NCBI RefSeq assembly: GCF_000003815.2
Contig: NC_049983.1
Location: 2,964,350-3,028,349 of the forward strand
Reading direction: 5' to 3'
Source: Branchiostoma floridae
Taxonomy: Eukaryota > Chordata > Leptocardii > Amphioxiformes > Branchiostomatidae
DNA: 64,000 nt
Both the position numbers and the translations under genes were made by a program. The first letter of the stretch is position 1. Every line of letters starts with the position of its first letter. Below are positions 3,905-60,880 of this stretch, one piece after another. The notes below the pieces were generated by a model. That model searched no databases and was not told where the DNA came from. It worked only from the letters and a program-made list of their open reading frames with translations.

Positions 3905-6152
3905 TTAGTCCTCTGGCCCAAATACTTCAGGCGCCTCTTTCAGAGCCACGCGGACCAGTTCTTCCCAGTACCAGCGCTTGATGTAGGTCGCGCGTTCCTT
4001 CTCATCTTGTACCGACTTGGTGAGGGTCTTCTGGATGTCTTGCAGCTCCCCCAAACTTAGTCCTTGTGTGTCGGGTAACTTGTAAGATGTGCGATCGGGC
4101 ACGGCAGTGATAATGTTCTTGATAACTGGGTACCGGAGAACATGCGGGGCGGTAGTGGCGAGTCTGGATCGAAGGGATTCGGCATGAGCGAGAAGCTTTT
4201 CCGCGTAGTCTCTCTCAACATGAAGCTCTTCCCACAGCTTGTTGACTGACGACATGACCATTTCATACTGAGGATCTTCTGCGTCCTTGTGTATGGGTGA
4301 TGAAGTGGTTGTTGTAAGAGACGCCCCTCCTTGAGTAGACGTTGTCGTCTGACTGTCTGTATCTGCGCCGCTGTTGTCGGGTGCTTCAGTCTGTTTTCCA
4401 CGGACAATTGAAGCATGGCACTCTGAGACATCGCCTTCTCCGGCAGTAGGGCGTTTGTCTGCTGTATCTGTGGCTGGTAGGCCGGATGCCGAGCTTGTTG
4501 AAGACGCTGCTTTGACGTCTGCGGCTTCGCCGGCAGCGGCTGGTGGTGAGTTGTCCTTGCCGCTGTTGTCCGTTAGTGCGTCCGGCTCTTTTTCCTGGGA
4601 AACATTGATCTTGTCATTCTCCAGCTCTGGTTTCTCCTGCAATTCCGTCTTGACTGTCCCCTCGGAAGTCTTGGCAGGGTCTGAATGAAAGAAGTGCACA
4701 CTCAATAATAAGTCTATAAAGAAGACGTCGACCTTTCTTCGGCACGTTACGCAAAGTAAAGGTATACATGCATATTGTTTGTCACCTTTATTTTAGAACT
4801 TGAATTAAAAGGAAAAAACATTAGACATCTATCTGTCAAACAATTTAAGTCTAAAGCGTCTTACCATGACAATTTGGTTGCTCCCTCTCCGGACCGTCGG
4901 CAGCACCGGACGCTTGAATGTGCGTCACGTCTGCGTTACGGTGCGCGTCATTTGGTGGGGCGTCCCTGTCTTCGTTAGCAGCAAACTCGTCCGCTGTGTC
5001 TGAAGTTGAGGCTGTTTCTGAAGTTGAGGCTGTTTCTGAAGTTGAGGCTGTGTCTGAAGTTGAGGCTGTGTCTGAAGTTGAGGCTGTTTCTGAAGTTGAG
5101 GCTGTGTCTGAAGTTGAGGCTGTGTCTGAAGTTGAAGCTGTGTCTGAAGTTGAGGCTGTGTCTGAAATTGAGGCTGTGTCTGAAGTTGAGGCTGTGTCTG
5201 AAAAGTCTTGTTTCGCGTCTGCGATGTCGCCGGTGACGGATGGCGGTTTGCTGTCCTTAGCACTGCTGTCACGGGGCGTGTCCACTTGTATTTCTTGGGA
5301 AACTGCCACCGCCTTGCCCTGGTGATTCTGCAGCCCCGACAGAGTCTCCGGCTTCCCTTTTGAAGATGCCTCAACAGTCTCCTCGATAGGCTTGGCTGGG
5401 ACTGAGTAGAAAGAGCCGTTTCATCAGGACTTTAAACAACATACATGACAATTCCCTTCAAATTTGCCCTAACCTTTCGCTTCTTTGAAAATGTTCATTG
5501 AGGAGTGGTCATTTTCATGTGTACCCTTGCTTGTGGTAGGAGTGAAAAATAATAGCTCGTTTTCCCCTATCAACGGCCACGAAAGCGTGACATACAAAAT
5601 CATCCTGCATAGGAACAGAAACAGACGCCTCTTACCTTGGTTCTGTGTAGGCTGACTTTTCACCTCGGTACCATCGAGAGTAACGGACACTTGTAAGAAC
5701 ACTTCCTCATTCCTCCGCCCGCCTTTGTTGGGCGGAACCATAATGTACCACCACTTCTGTGGTAAACCGTCCGCTGACTCTAGTGCGGCTGCAACATCGA
5801 TGGATAGCTCACCAACTGTGGTGTCTTTGCAGCGCTTCGCCTTTCGAAGTTTCAGAACCAGTTGGTCTGTTGGCGACCATGGCACGAACTCCGTAGAATG
5901 CTCCCAGATCAGTGCATCGGACTTTTTCTTAGCGGTTTGAATCTTTTCCTTGCCATGGCGCATTGTCACCAGATACTTGCCCTGACTCTGGCGTCCAACT
6001 TTGCCCTCGTGGACAGTTACGCTGAGTTTTGTCTCGCCACTCTGTCTTTTACCACCAGGCCTGAGCAATGAAAACACCTGTACCACTGAAAGGAACGCTG
6101 ACGCCGCCTTGTCTATAACCCCCATCTTTCTATGGGAAACTTGCAAATTCAC
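3905..6152 (-). CDS. C2-domain protein with duplicated low-complexity tail exons
   Basis: Three exons, all junctions GT/AG and phase 1: 6152-5636, 5401-4865 and 4680-3905 (stop at 3907-3905), giving 609 residues. Exon 1 holds a C2-like beta-sandwich (about residues 40-165: TKLSVTVHEGKV, KKSDALIWEHSTEF, LVLKLRKAK, GELSIDVA, FLQVSVTL), so binding of membrane or a protein partner is likely. Exon 2 encodes a DTASTS-type repeat of 12 units. Exon 3 ends in a charged helical region (ERDYAEKLLAHAESLRSRL, then KRWYWEELVRVALKEAPEVF). Exons 2 and 3 begin with related sequence (VPAKPIEETVEAS versus DPAKTSEGTVKTE), suggesting exon duplication. The start is uncertain: ATG 6152 opens the frame, but acceptor-like TTTCAG and GCTCAG sites inside exon 1 would allow an upstream first exon. 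The protein is not recognised by name. Confidence 0.72.
4995..5205 (-). repeat. 18-bp coding minisatellite (DTASTS repeat)
   Basis: About 12 tandem 18-bp units (plus strand GTTGAGGCTGTGTCTGAA, with T/G and A/G variants) lie within exon 2 of the C2-domain gene. Because 18 is a multiple of 3, several frames on both strands stay open and produce shadow reading frames. In the gene frame it reads Asp/Glu-Thr-Ala-Ser-Thr-Ser, acidic and Ser/Thr-rich. Copy number is probably polymorphic (inference). Confidence 0.95.
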
Positions 6153-11477: not shown

Positions 11478-14400
11478 CTAGTGTAAGGACTTGTCCGGGG
11501 AGATGTTGATATCGTTTCTCCTGTAGAACTCTGTCCTGACGTGCATGATGCGGACATGTTTGCGGTCGGGAGGGTCCTTAAACTGGTCCAGCTTGTGTCC
11601 GTAGTCAGAGGAGGACAGTGTTGGCACATCCTTCACTCTCTCCTGCAAGAGGTAATGTTGGAAATGTTACAGTCAAATAAATATCAAACGAATATTGACC
11701 TGTACACAGTGACATAAAATATAATAGACTGCAACCATGGGGATAATTGCAGGGCTATAATACTCCTAAGAGGATATGCCTTGCACACTATCCATGCAAT
11801 ATCAGGTCACACCAATTTGATTTCTTGGTTCACGGATTCGCTCGTTCCTATTTTTTGGGAAAAAAAAATAAAAATAAAAATTACCACTCAGCAAATTTTC
11901 ACCATTAATGAAACCATTCACCAACTTTCTGGTGTAGCAAATTGGCCTTTATGTTATAAGCTCCTGAAAGTGTGGGTACAGGTGCTGTTACTGTACAAAA
12001 ATAATGTTTTTGTACTTTTATCAAGCTGAAAACTTTTTTTCTTTATGTTTTGGATTAGCCGTTACCTTTACCCCAACCATTTTACAATTTTTATTTTTAT
12101 TTTTATTTCGCCCTCTCGCACCATATTCTTTATGAAAAAATCCGTAAACCAAGAAATTAAATTGGTGTGGCCTCAGCTGCCAAATTAACAGTCCTTATGA
12201 TGACTTCATTGTAACATTTTGCCACTTTCAATACAAAACAATTAATACCTGACTAAATGCTTTGATGCTCTCCAAAAAATGATACAGTACTACTATAATC
12301 AGGTTCAGACCTGTACAGATCCTCTGGACTGTACATAGTCAATTTTTCCCATCCCACTGTTTCGGAGCCAATGTTAATTTTTGTTGTTCGCTCTTTTGCA
12401 GACTTTTTATATTACGCTTGTGCGGGTGACAGAAATTCTGGATAGTATGTCAAAGGTAAAGGCCCCTGACTTGAAAATAGGCAGGCACCATTATTGTCTG
12501 GATATTGTTACACAAAGCGAGATCATATTGAGATAAGACTGTTTACTTCTCGGGGGGCTTCACCTTTCATAAACATGTAATACCCACAAAAAATTCCTGT
12601 TGCCTGCGCATGCGTAGTGAAATCTGTGGAAGAGCTTATAATGCTCCAGTTGCCTGATTTAATTTTGTTAACGCCCACTGACGTATTACTATTGCTAAGA
12701 TGGCGGCGGAGGTGGTCACGCCGATCCCACGCTCCTGCTGAGATAAGTTTAAAAGTGTCCTTACCGAGTAGATCTACAATATTTTTTCAACCAAAAGACT
12801 CTGTAGATATATTTCCGTCAACTCTGATTTATATCGGGTTGCCTTTTTCCCTTGTTCTTGGATATTTTGACGAATTTACGATTTTCCGTGAACCCAAGCC
12901 AACCCAAGCCAACTTCGGACGCCATGACCGACCCAAGCGCTCACGAGGACTTGTACTCCGTACTCGGTGTATCTTCTTCGGCAACTCCTGATGATATTGT
13001 GGAAGCGTACAAAAAGGAGGTCAAGCTGTACGAGAACGCGTCTAAACTCGGCAGAAGTAAGCAAGCGTCCAAAGAAGCTTTGACAAGACACAAGGAGGTA
13101 AGCAGATCGTTCAGTATACTATCCGACGTGTCCCGAAGACAACGGTATGACAACAGCGGCTCTGTAACTGTCCCTACCAAAATCACAAAGAAGTCACGCA
13201 AACAGTCCGCAGATTACTGCATTAACCAGAATGAGCAAAGTGTCACGATATTTTTACCCCCGAACCTTGCGACCTCTTGGCTCTCCAAGTGCGAAGAACA
13301 CCACTCAACCCGAGCAACGAGAAAGGCACCGGTAAATAACCGGGTAGTAAAGGGCAAGGTCCCTGACAACGGCCACCAGATCAAAACCGTGTTCAAAGAT
13401 ACCCAATCTCAAGACATCGTAGGTTCTGTCAGTATCATGGTCTATGAATCTACAAACAAGATTCTAGTTCAGGGTTCCGCTTATCTGTTGTGGTTCACGG
13501 AAGTATTCCCTGTTCTCAAAGAGGCAATTGACACTGCGTGTACCGACAAAATCAAGGCTCTGACAGAATCGGAAGAACCCAGTTTAGTTGTATCGTTGGA
13601 CACAACAGATAGCCCCCCATTGTGCTCAGTATGTGAACAACCTATGATGGCTGACGTTTGCGCTTTGTGTGAAACTGTGCCTAAAGTCGTGCTAGACTGC
13701 AACAGTAATGATTTGCGTCCTGTTGAAATTGAGGAAACGGTAGAAGACACAAGTACTCCTCACAGCGGTATCACGGCTAACAAGTCAACTCCTGTCATTC
13801 CTGCCGACTACTCTATTCTTCAGGAAAATGTGAACAAACTGGAAGCTTGTCTTGTTGACTCAATCTCAGTTCAAAAAACCTCTGAGACTTCAATCCTGCA
13901 AAGGCTTTCCTTACTGGAGGACAGGCTGAAAGTCCGTGAACAAAACCATGTCTGTGAAGGACTATCTGCCCTTGAGAAAAGGAAACTCCTAGAAGATGTT
14001 GCACGTTTGGAAAGTGTAAAATGTGATCTTGAGAATCAAGTTCAGTCACTCCAACGCAAATACAACGAGCTGTCAAGTGCTATGCAGAAGGTTCATTTGT
14101 CGGGTTCACACGGTCAGACAAAATCGACAGAGACACAAACCACCCAGGAGGCTTCAGATCGCGCCGACAAATTATTGTATGAATTAGCTAATGTCAGCGT
14201 CAGCAACAGATTTCAAGTTCTAGATGAGTACAACAATAGGAACAGCTCCGACAATACAGTTTCAAACCCCGGTGCTAAACGCCGTCGCCAAGCACACAAA
14301 ACAGGCGCGAACGTGTCTCCTGTTCAGGACAAAGTGGAAGACAAGGTCCCTGAATCAACAATCACACAGCATCAGCATTGTAAAGACATGCCGCCCGATG

Positions 14401-17400
14401 TGTTAATCTTGGGTGACTCCAACACAAAGCCAATCAAGCCAGACGTCATGTATCCAGACAAACGTGTAACAAAAGAGATAACCTACAACATAACACAAGC
14501 TACAGACCACATCCAACAGTCAACCATGCCCGCCCCCAAAGTTATACTGTTCCACATTGGAACTAACGACGTACGAGACAAACGGGATCCAACGGCTGTT
14601 TCTGAGGGTTTTCGAAAACTAATTCAGACTTCCCGCGATAAGTTCCCCCATACTCCACTGGTTTTCTCCGCCATTCCGCCCAGACGCGACTCAAAGCTAC
14701 AAGAAATTGGCGAACAGGTGAACTCTTTCCTGAATGTCGTATCTGAAGAAACCAGCTACGTACACGTGACGGACAACAGCAACCTGTCAAACATGGGGAC
14801 GATCAAGGAAGCCCTATATTGCCAAGATGGTTACCACTTGAATAGGTTCGGAACCCGCGTGATGGTCTCTAACATTAAAAGAGTGGTTAACCCTATCATA
14901 GGTCTGGGTAACTACAGCAGTAAGGGTACAAGGGCAAACTTCCAGTCACTCCCTGGTCAATGTGCTGTGCCTCCAAGATTCTACCAGCATCCCGCAAACG
15001 GTCAGAGACAACCCCCACGTTCTCTCGTGGTTGGATCTCAAGGTCAAAGTCAAGGCCTTCCCCGATCACCAAATGCACCTGCATCAAACCAACGTTCAAC
15101 TGTACTGTCCGGACGTGCCGTCGGAACTTTTCCAGCCAGTTCTCCTTCGGGACAGCCAAACGGACAACCCCGTGATGGTGGTACTCCATCACCGGCACCG
15201 CCTGGACGTCCTGCCGTGTTCGGTGCACCTGCCTCGGGACAGCCAGACGGACAACCCCGTGGTACTCCATCACCGGCACCGCCTGGACTTCCTGCCGTGT
15301 TCAATGCACCTGCCTCGGGACAGCCAGACGGACAACCCCGTGGTACTCCATCACCGGCACCGCCTGGACTTCCTGCCGTGTTCGGTGCACCTGCCTCGGG
15401 ACAGCCAGACGGACAACTCCGTGGTACTCCATCACCGGCACCGCCTGGACGTCCAGCCGTGTTCGGCGCACCTGCAAGAGACTCCCGCCTACAGCCGAGT
15501 CAGCGTTCGGGACCATGGGGAAGCCCGCCTCCCTTCTTCAACTTCCCACCTGCACCATGGGGCCTTCCACCTCCGAACACTACCCGAATGGCTCCTCCAC
15601 CTTGGCCCTGGCATCCAGCCCTGATGTGGCCGCCCATGCCGATGTGGTAGGAAAAGTATAAGTATAAGTCGTAACATGTTGGAACATGAGTATATATTAT
15701 AAGTAAAACTGTTAGTTGAGCAAGGAATTAATGACGTATTTAGTATTTCTTTGCATCTTCTTTTCAACTTCAAGTTTACTTGATATATTGAGAAAACGTA
15801 TTGAATCTATATATAATGTCCTCATTTTAGTTTAAACTCGGATTTTTAAATGTTGCTAGATATTGTATTTTAATGCTCGTGTATGGACACTATTTTACTT
15901 ATTGCACTGTTTTGTTTTGTTTTGGATATGAAAGCATTCCGAAGTGGATGCAAGAGCTTTGGCGTTTGGAATGTACACGGATTAGGTTCCAAACTAGAGG
16001 ATTCTGATTTTCTGTCTCACATCAAAAAGTTCGACTTCTTCTCGCTTTTAGAAACCTGGAGTACAGAAAACACCAAAATTAACATTCCCAACTACAGCTA
16101 TTTTCACCAACATAGACAAAAGAGCAAGCGAGCGAAACGTTCTTCGGGAGGTATTGTCTTCCTATTTAAAAACGAATACAAATGTTACGTAAAGAAAGCA
16201 CCATCTAAATCAACAGATGCCCTTTGGGTACAAATCGACCGCCAACTACTCGGTTTGCCCAAAGACTTATTTATTTGTTGTCTCTATATTAGCCCCGGAT
16301 CATCCACTGCTCACAAACATTCAGACAATCACATCATAGAAACGTTAGAAGATGAAATTTCTAAATTTAGCTCTGTCGGATATGTATTACTAGGTGGTGA
16401 TTTTAATGCTCGTCTCGGAAATCTACCTGATTACACAGCCGATTCTCATATTGACGACGATTCCGACAGCTCCCCATACTTCACTGACAGACAACACATG
16501 GATAAAGTTCCTCACAATAAATTCGGCAGACTAATCACAGACCTGTGCATTCAAGCAAACCTTAGAATTTTAAATGGTAGAGTCGTTGGCGACTTACAAG
16601 GAAAATGCACGTGTCATCAACCAAACGGTAGCAGCACAGTTGATTTAATGATTTGTAGCCAGCCCTTCCTACAACAAATTTTAACATTCCGTGTCAATCC
16701 TTTAACAGTTTTCTCTGACCATTGTATGATATCAGCATTTATCAACTCAAAACCACCAATACATCTTTGTCAGGAGAAACACAAAATCTCACACAACAAG
16801 CCTCTTCCTAAACAGTTTCACTGGAACGAGAACTCTGCTCAGACATTCCTTCTTTCTCTCAGTCAGCCTGAAATTGTAAAACGATTAGGTGCTTTGAAAG
16901 ACACTAACAACATAACATCTGTGGCAGAAATTGAGAATTATGTTTCTGAATTTGGCTCAATTCTAAGAGAGGCGGGTAACAAGTCACTGTGCTTAAAAAG
17001 AACTAGAAAACGCCCACCGAAAAGACAAAATAAGAAATGGTTCGATAAAACGTGTGTTGAAATGAAACGTGAAATTAAAAATTTAGCCTATTTACTTGAA
17101 AAAAATCCTTCAAACTCAGAAGCAAGAGGCAGCTTCTTCAGAAAGAAAAGGGAATATAGAAAATTGCTAAAAAAGAAAAAACGAGATTTCCGTCAACAAA
17201 TTATGAATCAACTCTCCACTCTCAGAGAAAAGAATCCAAGTGCACTTTGGGACCTTGTTAATAAATTAAAACCAGAGAAGGCTCAAGAAAATAGCCAAAT
17301 CCCCAGCGAAGACTGGTTAAACCACTTTAGTAAAGTTGACAAATCATCCAACGGAAATTATGTCGGTCCTTTCACTCCTGTAAATGATGAATCTCATTCC

Positions 17401-20400
17401 CCAACAGAGACAGAGAACTCTACATTAGATTCTACAATTACTGCAGATGAATTAGACAGAGCTATTGCAAACTTAAAGAATAACAAGTCAAGTGGAAGCG
17501 ATATGATAAGAAACGAAATGCTGAAATGTGGCAAATCAATTTTCCGGAAACCTCTACTCCATCTTTTTAACCTGTGCTTACAAAACGCATACTTCCCCGA
17601 AGAATGGTCGCTCAGCCATATTGTACCTATCCACAAATCCGGAGATACTTCACTCCCAGACAACTATAGAGGAATCTCTATTATAAGTTGTCTTGGAAAA
17701 TTGTTCTGTTCAATCTTAAACAATAGACTGTCTAATTACGCAGAAGAAAACAGCCTTTTCAAACCACAACAGGCCGGTTTCAGGAAGAATTTTAGAACAA
17801 CTGATAATCTATTCACTTTGAACACGCTCGTCAGCAAGTATATCAGTAGAAATTCACGTCTGTACGCATGTTTTGTAGATTTTAGTAAAGCTTTTGATTC
17901 TGTTTGGCGAGAAGGTCTTTTACTTAAATTGAAGAAACTTGGGATAGGGGGCAAATTTCTCCTGACCATAAAAGATATGTACTCTAAAACTACAAATTGC
18001 ATAAAAACAAACAGTGGTCTAACCGATACTTTTGTAACTCACTGTGGGGTTCGACAAGGCTGTAACCTGAGTCCAACATTGTTCAATTTATTTATTAGTG
18101 ACATAGCCTCAGAATTTGATCATTCCTGTTGTAATCCTCCAGTTCTACACTGTATGAATGTACCTTGTCTATTATATGCTGATGATTTAGTAATATTCTC
18201 AGAGTCACAACGTGGCTTACAATCATCTTTGTCTAGATTAGAAGAGTACTGTAAATCTTGGAGGTTGAAAGTCAACCTAAAAAAGACAAAAATCGTAGTT
18301 TTCACCAAGGGTGGTCGTTTACCAAGAGACTGCTCCTTCTCGTTTAATAATAATGTAGTAGAAATTGTATCTTCATATTGTTAGTTAGGCATAATTGTCA
18401 ACTCAGCTGGCACATTCAAAGCCAATCACAAATACCTATACACCAAGGGACTAAGAGCTTTGTTCGGAGTTCGACAATCCCTGGAGAAACCCGAGGCCCC
18501 GTTGTCCGTTAAAAACAAGTTATTCGATTCCTGTGTCAAACCTATCTTGCTTTATGGATCGGAGATATGGGGCTCTTTCAAAAGTTCAAAATCTTGCCCA
18601 ATCGAATCCGTACATCTAAAATTCTGTAAACAATCCCTCAATGTCCCCAAAACAGCTAGCAATCTTGCTGCACGGGCTGAATTAGGGAGGTACCCCTTAC
18701 ACTTGGAGGCCTCCCTAAACGCCATTAAGTTTTTCACTAGAGTCTGCTTGAATGTGCCGGCTGATAGTCTCCAGGCAGACGCACTCTTATGTCAATTAGA
18801 ATTAGACTCTTTAGGTAGTAAATGTTGGGCTTCCGGTGTGCGGAAAACTTTAGAAGAATGCGGTTATGCCTTTGTTTGGCATTCTCCACACTCAATTGTT
18901 TCAAAAGTGCCTTCAATCATCTCTGCTATTCAACAACGTTTAAAGGACATCTACTTTCAAACATTTCTATGCGAAATTCATAATGACAACAAGGGCAAAT
19001 GCGCAAAGAACAAATTACGCTCATACAGACTGTTCAAATCCACCTATAACGAAGAAGAGTATCTTAAGATTCCGAACGAACGACAAAGATCTATTATCAC
19101 CAAACTACGAATCAGCTGCCACAAACTCCGTGTTGAATCAGGGAGGCACAACCGCACACCTCTGGAGCAAAGAGTCTGTCAGTTCTGTAACCTGAACAAG
19201 ATCGAAGATGAATCTCACTTTCTATTAGATTGTAGTTTATATAGTAACGATAGAAGTATTCTTTTTAGCCATATTATAGGAAAGTTCCCTCGCTTTGAAT
19301 ATATGTCTAGTGTTGAAAAATTCATTTTTCTTATGAGCTTTGATCAAACGACATTATACAAACACATCTCAAGCTACATATTTAACATAACTAAGAAACG
19401 AGAAGAAGCCGAACAAATGTATTAGAATAGTTTTAGAATTTATGTTTTAGATTAGTCTTAGAAACCATGATGTTTACTGCATTACTACCCTTTGTATCTA
19501 TATGCCTGTACTTAGCCCGATAGGGCATGAATGTGCAATAAAGGCTATTACATTTTATTAATGAAGTAAACGTAGAGGACAGACAAGGGCAAGTGATAAC
19601 CACAAAACAACAAAGGATTGAATACAAACACTTATCGTGTGGATCATCTATCTTCAACATTACAACATCACGAAGAAAGAAGCGAGAAGATGACCCATGA
19701 ATTAGATTACTTTGCTCATATAAGTATCTGTATCTTGTGAATACATTTGCATTAAAGTGCCGTTCGTACCTCACTGTTGACATCCAGTCCCTTTAACTTG
19801 GCGTGTTCTCTGTCGTCTCTGTGCAGTTTGTTGTTGTAACCTTGTGGCTGGTGAAACAGTCTGTCGTAGGTCGACACTGGGCGGTCCTAGAAAAACATGA
19901 GCAGTAACGTTATAGCTTCGTCATATTTGTTCAAGATAAAGGTAAATATGCGATAAAAGGTGATGAGAAACTCGGTGTGACAGACTCCTTTTTTGGTAGA
20001 TTTCAACAGGTTTATATGAAATTAAAACTGAAATGCATCACTGTCATCACAGGACAGTCTGGCATTTTCAACATCGTGTTCTAATTATGCAGATAATGTT
20101 ATAACGTTACATTGCGTTGTATTTTCTGTCTCAACCGAAATGAGAAAAACATGTATGTTGGAATACAATTCTATAACATTTTCATCACACAGATCGGAAA
20201 TTTTCTGTCCAAGTAAGTTGCCAGTGGTCGAACAAAAAATGCATTGTGTTGGCAGGTTTTTACTAGTTTGGCTGGATAAATGGAAACATGACATTGTTTT
20301 CCTCTGGCCTATTTGCAAGCAAAGAAAAATATAAGACGAACTGAAGAAAAATGCAGGTGTACAAGAGCCCACCCCTGCATGAGGACCATCTGGCCACTAT

Positions 20401-58600: not shown

Positions 58601-60880
58601 TTAAATTCTGGGTAGGGGCTGCACCCATCTGCACCCCTCTTGGTTGGGGGTCCTCGGTTTGTGGAGGCTTCTCATGCAAGTTGAAGGGCAAGGGCTTGTA
58701 ACCATGCAACCCCTCCCTGTAAAAAAATACTCTTCCACAGAAACAGCATGGAAACTTGCTATGACAGTACAAGGTGAACAATAACACAACAACATACTTT
58801 CTGCTATGTTCTTGTTCGGATATCTGTTGAGTGATTCTCAGAGGTTTAGAGGAGTAGTGTGTATTTCTGTATTGTATTTCTGCCATGGTAAATGAATGTC
58901 CTTTGGTGCTGTCTCAAGTCTGTTTGGTATTATAGGATCCTACCAGAGAAATCCAAATTTCACACTGTAATGGATTAGAGCTAGTCTATGTAACACAAAC
59001 TCTGCTGTCCTGGACTGTAACTGGCCCTAGCTTCCCCTAGGCCAGCGGATGTTGGGCGGGCTGCTATAAGCGAGATTAAATCACGCTAGATTAGAGCAGT
59101 TTATGCTACAGAGCTGACCCCAGTTATGGTACAGAGCAGTGAACACTTATAGAAATCCTCATTGGCGATAATTTTAAAATTAGCAAGTTCAGGGTGTCAT
59201 AATCTCATCCGTGAACATTCCAGGTCATAAGAACTCATCCCACACAGCAGCCCGCTATCTCAAGTGTCCAAAAGTCTAATATTTAAACTTTCTGACCGGT
59301 GCAACTATTCCTGCGGTCAAACCTTGCCGCCATCTTGCTTTGAATGACGTCATTTTTGGGACTCGGCACTTCAAATTAGGGGTCAGTACAGGCCGAAAAG
59401 ATGGACCAAAACCTAGTTTTTTTGCCTAATCTGAACATCTGCAACCTACACTGTCTCACCAATATGAAATGTACTTACATTTTCCTGCTAAAAGTCGAAA
59501 ATAGGCTAAAATACTGTATGGACTCGTTTTGGGCCTTCTGCGCCTGCGTCAATTAGGGTCATTGCCCTACAGGGTCAGTGGCCTTGAGTGCCCTACTTTG
59601 CAAGACAGGGAAAAGAAAACAAAAAATGCATCTTCTGACCTGATAATTCAAAGAACTGAGAAATACGGTATGCAGATGACGGCATGGGTACGTTTAATTT
59701 ACACGGCATGGGTACGTGAAAATGACGCCTGGCCACACTGTTCTTTCTCATAGGAGTTAGGACTCTGAGTCTGTTGTCCTTATCAGCTCAGTTTCTCAAG
59801 AAGGTCTCTTTCAACTGATCTGACCCCTGACAAGGTTGAGGGCATGTCACTTGAACTTTGACCTCTATGTTATGTGTCTCTCTGACATCAATATTGCTTA
59901 GTCAACATAGGTCATATGTCTGTAGTTTTCAAATCAAGGTTGCCTGGCATTTGTCAGTCTGTTTTCGAAAGATTTATTCAGGCCATTTTTACAGCTTTAT
60001 TCCAAAAGGGGATGTTTTAGTTCAGTTATTAATGGTGTATGGAGTAATGTAAATGTATCCAACGTAAATGTATCCAACTATGAATATATCTATCTCTATA
60101 GGGCATATTAGGACACTAAGAGGTCTATTTACTAAAAGCACATATGCATTGTAATGATATGTATTATTGTAACATATGTCGAATTGAAGGGTGACGTATT
60201 GATATTGATTTTTTGGAAGTGGGCATAATAAAAGAAGTTGGGCCAGATGGGGAACAATTACTAACGTTATATAATTATACACATGTATATACAACTACGC
60301 CTTCAAAGTTGCATTTATGTTTTGGAACTGGTACACTGAGAAAACATATGACTTGCCTTATTACACGAAAGACCCTCGCCCATATAACATCACAACAATG
60401 GTATGACATGGCCCACCTGAATATACAAGCTGGTAAGACCTGTTTGTCACACATCTGAGGTCACCTGGCTCTACTCCTTAAGGGCAGGTATGTGTTCCTT
60501 ACACCCAGCTGAACACAAGCTTGTTAGAGGCACGCCATGTTGTTTTTATGCATTTCGGTACCTTGGCCTTCTAGATCTGTTAGCTCAACAAAATGCCAGT
60601 ACCTAGGCTTGGTTGGTTGGCCTAGTTGATCAAGTTGATGAGTTAGCCGGTTATATAGTTAACATTTTACACTTGCTCTCCAAGGCAAGTGCAGCCTTCA
60701 TACACAAGTATCACTATTTTGGTCAATTTCTACTGTTTTCAATTCGACACATAGGTTTGATACATGTAAAGACCAAATATGTATCATAAACGGACAAGAC
60801 AGTGAGTTAAAAGATGGCTAATAGTTCTGTCAACAAGACGACAAGTAAAATTGCACACTTTAAAAACAATCCTGTCCAAC

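Follow-up and report, generated by a model that had tools for sequence, protein, structure and literature searches.

The question raised by this locus is what a J domain without its catalytic tripeptide would do at the head of a transposon protein. The window analysed here, a stretch of 64,000 nucleotides from the lancelet Branchiostoma floridae (assembly GCF_000003815.2, contig NC_049983.1, positions 2,964,350 to 3,028,349), contains a long interspersed nuclear element (LINE) whose first open reading frame (ORF1; 12924..15650, + strand, 908 aa plus stop, open) starts with a domain of the DnaJ family, in which Glu-Asn-Ala (ENA) stands at the position of the His-Pro-Asp motif (HPD). We consider it probable, at roughly 60% and judging from sequence comparison and analogy, that this HPD-less domain, being under purifying selection, is a J-like docking module for assembly of the ORF1 protein (ORF1p) with a protein partner and not an Hsp70 ATPase switch.

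A first-pass annotation, made from the letters of the window, had proposed a J-domain pattern at the start of ORF1 and ENA in place of HPD, and both observations were borne out. Residues 9-76 of ORF1 (12948..13151, + strand) match the Pfam DnaJ family (PF00226) over the full profile length with 40.2 bits and an E-value of 3.8e-10 when residues 1-99 serve as query, while the whole ORF1 protein scores 34.6 bits (E 2.1e-8) against a profile cut-off of 27.8 bits; structure prediction for the ORF1 N-terminus likewise gives a J-fold model. ENA occupies codons 37-39 (13032..13040, + strand). The domain thereby shows the profile match of about 70 residues expected of a J-domain protein, carries ENA where HPD should lie between helices II and III, and combines a predicted J fold without HPD with maintenance by selection, as J-like proteins do. 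The notion that it is no J domain at all, rather a chance or convergent helical hairpin, could draw on the mean identity of 0.30-0.34 between ORF1 copies and four cellular J domains and on the 99.4 bits that a true DnaJ reaches on the same profile, but it deserves next to no credence, being already contradicted by the E-value over the full profile, the J-fold model and the DnaJ match at E <= 1e-3 in 22 of 25 scanned family members (the same scan found the GDSL family in 20 and PHD in 10).

The loss of HPD had initially been ascribed to this copy; the loss stands, the restriction to one copy does not. Searching the 513,431,437-base genome with the ORF1 J domain returned at least 41 matches, a lower bound, 40 of which have no stop inside the match, and these comprise 38 ORF1 copies, the window's included, and three host J domains (L043, L045 and L047); loci L001-L008 are duplicates of the window and of L009-L015 and were left out of this sorting. 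None of the 38 ORF1 copies has HPD. The histidine position is occupied by E in 35, D in two and A in one, and the triplets are EEA (16), ENA (6), EET (4), EKT (4), DNI (2), EST (2), EQA (2), EKI (1) and AKT (1), counts that are to be read with the 38 copies being not independent, since they represent 29 distinct J sequences. In L044 and L046 the match begins only at about residue 34, and a third copy (L042) has a stop. ORF1 is followed by matches to the second reading frame (ORF2) in all 20 loci covered over eight kb, several of them broken, and both frames are long and open in six of these (ORF1 >=850 codons, ORF2 >=1160); the linkage refers to these 20 loci, the other 17 copies having been covered over 900-1000 bases only. 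A one-off fusion at this locus, the alternative named in the first-pass annotation, is therefore not borne out, as domain and HPD loss are both kept in the other copies.

The same picture emerged among proteins, HPD being absent from every ORF1 copy examined, whether protein row or genome copy. The alignment of the HPD position comprised 25 protein rows and left out P0004, P0011-P0013, P0024, P0027 and P0031, of which P0024 and P0027 are without the HPD stretch and P0013, a broken gene model, has E there. The three host J domains all have HPD (3/3). Moreover, when this genome was searched with the DnaJ profile, 73 matches were obtained, which are stretches and not genes because host genes match exon by exon; 34 of them coincide with the 38 ORF1 copies, a warning for annotation, as nearly half of such hits are transposon ORF1 copies. 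As a host control, 30 of the 73 loci were inspected, and the 23 host loci among them showed HPD in 21, HPE in one and HPG in one, with 16 further host matches outside this count.

Relatives of the window's ORF1 are found in three Branchiostoma species. The ORF1 protein search listed 14, of which 12 come from B. belcheri, one from B. lanceolatum (P0013, with a partial J domain) and one is unnamed; querying with the distant relative P0014 listed 14 proteins including itself, distributed over B. belcheri, B. lanceolatum and B. floridae, and the DnaJ family is recorded for 12 of them. Three genomic J domains are letter-identical to database proteins (L033 to P0016 and L037 to P0025, both B. floridae, and L035 to P0008). 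When the N-terminal 235 residues of 23 ORF1s were placed in a tree, from which P0003, P0024, P0026 and P0027 were left out, clade A (12 rows, the window among them) and clade B (11 rows made up of the kin of P0014, several with a PHD finger) each received support of 100/100. Species are mixed within both clades, so the split likely predates these Branchiostoma species. Database names of J-bearing ORF1s include 'G-protein coupled receptor' (P0014, P0015, P0021), '1-alkyl-2-acetylglycerophosphocholine esterase' (P0022) and 'J domain-containing protein' (P0016, P0025), and such names probably reflect misannotation brought about by the transposon. A stretch elsewhere in the window (4391-4681, - strand) is 64% identical to part of P0025, where it is joined to a J-domain ORF1, and P0025 is likely a chimeric gene model.

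The J domain is under purifying selection. The ratio of nonsynonymous to synonymous substitution rates (dN/dS, Nei-Gojobori), suggested at the outset as a check across copies, was indeed low, with 0.04, 0.20, 0.19, 0.21, 0.14, 0.14, 0.21 and 0.14 in eight of nine pairs, the ninth being saturated; the pairs were drawn from 13 full-length ORF1s among 17 examined. The esterase domain further downstream gave 0.05-0.28 (seven of nine pairs estimable) and the ORF1 tail 0.20-0.83 (all nine), and values above 1 occurred in one or two pairs at residues 204-229, 257-296 and 391-484 and in the zinc stretch. As the J-domain ratio is low and near that of the esterase, the domain persisted through the loss of HPD. 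Within subfamilies, which were grouped by eye and without L042, L044 and L046, three median J-domain ratios were 0.17 (10 of 10 pairs), 0.21 (30 of 36) and 0.25 (two of three), on few changes, and three further subfamilies of two members each have one change or none in the domain. Protein identity in clade A was 0.60 for the J domain and 0.64 for the esterase, with 0.22-0.44 for the four linkers and 0.30 for the tail; in clade B it was 0.61, 0.57 and 0.30 for J domain, esterase and tail. It is accordingly very improbable that the domain is a decaying, vestigial passenger, an explanation to which the missing HPD and a stop inside the match in one of the 38 copies might speak, but which the dN/dS range of 0.04-0.21, the conserved core and the presence in three species and two clades already contradict.

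What the domain may contact is suggested by its surface. In the ORF1 J domains, the net charge of helix II, the Hsp70-facing helix, has changed from +3 to mostly -1 together with the replacement of His by Glu, and within the set of 23 rows used for charge and conservation (the near-identical P0003 and P0015 left out) the core is kept along with the helix II residues Y29 (23/23) and K30 (22/23). The earlier idea that the domain could still bind Hsp70 is weakened on this basis, as the positively charged face of helix II altered along with HPD. A decoy, in which the domain would still bind Hsp70 or its complex with a J protein, trigger no hydrolysis and thereby hold or block the host chaperone during particle assembly, is possible though doubtful: the kept core with Y29 and K30 is compatible with it, the excerpted text of PMC12953747 has HPD-less Pam16 blocking Pam18 stimulation in vitro, and HSPA8 and HSPA1A are listed for human L1 ORF2p purifications in the part of PMC5821459 consulted, but the altered charge and the Glu would weaken canonical Hsp70 docking, and the L1 observation comes from a different LINE and from ORF2p. 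A second surface feature lies between helices II and III, a lysine-rich segment in which the net charge of residues 37-58 ranges from 0 to +5 in 25 ORF1 rows versus -2 to 0 in three cellular J domains. It could bind RNA or acidic lipid with the J fold as a mere scaffold, and the excerpt of PMC3905857 describes esterase-type ORF1ps as having no known structural RNA-binding domain; we regard this as unlikely, the charge of the whole domain being modest (-1 to +5) and the adjacent KA1-like domain an equally good candidate.

Under the docking reading, a cellular J protein would have donated the J domain in a single capture that preceded the divergence of the two ORF1 clades and of the Branchiostoma species; HPD would have disappeared afterwards, as would most of helix II's basic face, with an acidic residue becoming fixed at the histidine position. 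What preserved the fold would be some non-catalytic contact. The example of Pam16, which lacks HPD and forms a pair with the J protein Pam18, suggests by analogy that the partner is probably another J fold, either a host J protein or ORF1p itself, and the neighbouring domain, the coiled coil and the esterase would supply RNA or lipid contact and multimerisation. Several points count against this reading. The nine dN/dS pairs share members and are not independent, between-subfamily dS is often saturated, which makes the ratios rough, and two subfamilies have higher medians of 0.33 (nine of 10 pairs) and 0.43 (14 of 15), again with few changes. The linker that follows the J domain reaches an identity of 0.64 in clade B, so that conservation there does not single out the J domain, and the database copies are annotated gene models, which favours open frames. 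Furthermore, a positive helix II is still found in two of 25 ORF1 rows, and no Tim16 chain appeared among the matches listed, so that nothing ties the domain to Pam16 itself.

The element that carries the domain spans about 6.86 kb (12697..19551, + strand), as delimited by blastn against other genome copies. Among the matches listed for six copies (L009-L014), the 5' match starts at 12697-12698 in four and at 12707 and 12736 in the others, and the 3' match ends at 19551 and 19550 for L013 and L014 and at 19255-19266 for the other four; the copies are dispersed over many contigs, with a 5' end common to four of six and a 3' end common to two of six, as expected of a LINE. At the 5' end lies AAGATGGCGGC (12697..12707, + strand), which occurs exactly near the start of 10 of the 20 eight-kb loci, with C immediately before it in these 10, and is reminiscent of the YY1 site with which human L1 begins at its 5' end. 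A second exact copy of AAGATGGCGGC is present in the window at 59326-59336 on the - strand; two or more copies with at most one mismatch were seen in 11 of 100 shuffles.

Behind the J domain, ORF1 (all features on the + strand) continues with a second conserved domain at residues 96-215 (13209..13568), which has a predicted alpha/beta fold and weak Flpp3/KA1/BamC-like matches. It has no Pfam match above cut-off in the scanned copy, and PF27108 is listed for most clade B proteins. A CxxC...CxxC pair at residues 234-249 (13623..13670), likely a zinc ribbon and a feature of clade A, sits where clade B member P0014 has a full PHD finger, the outer Cys pairs aligning and the middle missing. Then follow a likely coiled coil at residues 297-390 (13812..14093; weak coiled-coil profile matches), the SGNH/GDSL esterase at about residues 485-660 (14376..14903) with GDSN (14412), GTND (14559) and DGYH (14826), and a proline-rich tail (14904..15647) that contains, in frame, an 81-base tandem repeat in four copies (15147-15475). 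The esterase alone matches PF13472 with 38.4 bits and, with its catalytic motifs, identifies an esterase-type (Type IV) ORF1. ORF2 (15883..19425, + strand) comprises an apurinic/apyrimidinic endonuclease (APE) and a reverse transcriptase (RT), its C-terminal part carries a CxxC-H-C motif recognised by eye, and its Pfam matches to Exo_endo_phos and RVT_1 place the element among the APE-type LINEs without long terminal repeats. The window copy has a single in-frame TAG at 18382-18384, and some other copies have an open ORF2.

The element in the window is one of a mosaic set, its ORF1 and its ORF2 having different nearest kin. In 250-base steps it is 82-98% identical to L009-L012 over 12851-15600 (one tandem-repeat step unscored) and 85-98% identical to L013 and L014 from 15851 on, the opposite comparisons giving 53-83%. 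Finer steps place the switch in a junction at about 15551 to 15850 (+ strand), around the inter-ORF spacer, where 15626-15775 resembles neither set (56-69%). The switch of nearest kin at the spacer shows that the J-bearing ORF1 and ORF2 recombined as units between subfamilies. Reticulate evolution of ORF1 has been described for CR1/L2 in the excerpt of PMC4120745. We put forward, tentatively and by analogy, a bolder scenario that we hold to be rather doubtful, in which a single capture and an acidic residue at the trigger histidine would have turned the dead domain into a Pam16-like factor that regulates host J proteins and Hsp70, or competes with them, in ORF1p particle assembly, with ORF1 passed between LINE subfamilies as a cassette. 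If true, this would be a transposon-encoded chaperone-regulating part.

Of the two halves of a LINE, the ORF1 protein is the one less well understood, and how the esterase type binds RNA is an open question according to the consulted part of PMC3905857. A selected J-like domain in a lancelet LINE would suggest that a transposon is directly connected with the Hsp70/J-protein system of its host, through a small and testable domain. The proposal that this is a new architecture holds against the literature examined: our literature search, in which papers were mostly judged by title, found no report of a J or DnaJ domain in a LINE ORF1, lancelets included, and the excerpts of PMC3905857 and of PMC4120745, with its five-type ORF1 scheme, name no J domain. 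We rate the element as a known ORF1 class, the esterase type, with a new HPD-less J module.

Set beside known systems, the window's element shares with the Type IV ORF1ps of CR1/L2 and RTEX (ZfL2-1) the SGNH esterase with GDSN, GTND and DGYH, a likely coiled coil before it and an APE-RT ORF2 after it, whereas the lancelet ORF1 adds J, KA1-like and zinc modules to the esterase types described in the excerpts of PMC4120745 and PMC3905857. With Pam16/Tim16 and other HPD-less J-like proteins it has in common a J fold without HPD, and Pam16 cannot stimulate the Hsp70 ATPase, as the excerpt of PMC12953747 states; unlike Pam16/Tim16, the lancelet domain resides in a transposon ORF1 and not in a mitochondrial import subunit. 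The DNAJ/Hsp40 proteins of the same genome (L043 DNAJC5-like, L045 DNAJB-like and L047 DNAJC7-like, named by eye) are of the same domain family and were found with the ORF1 query, but they differ in having kept HPD and in their mean identity of 0.30-0.34 to the ORF1 copies. The SV40 large T antigen, a viral protein, likewise has an N-terminal J domain, but one that has HPD and activates Hsc70.
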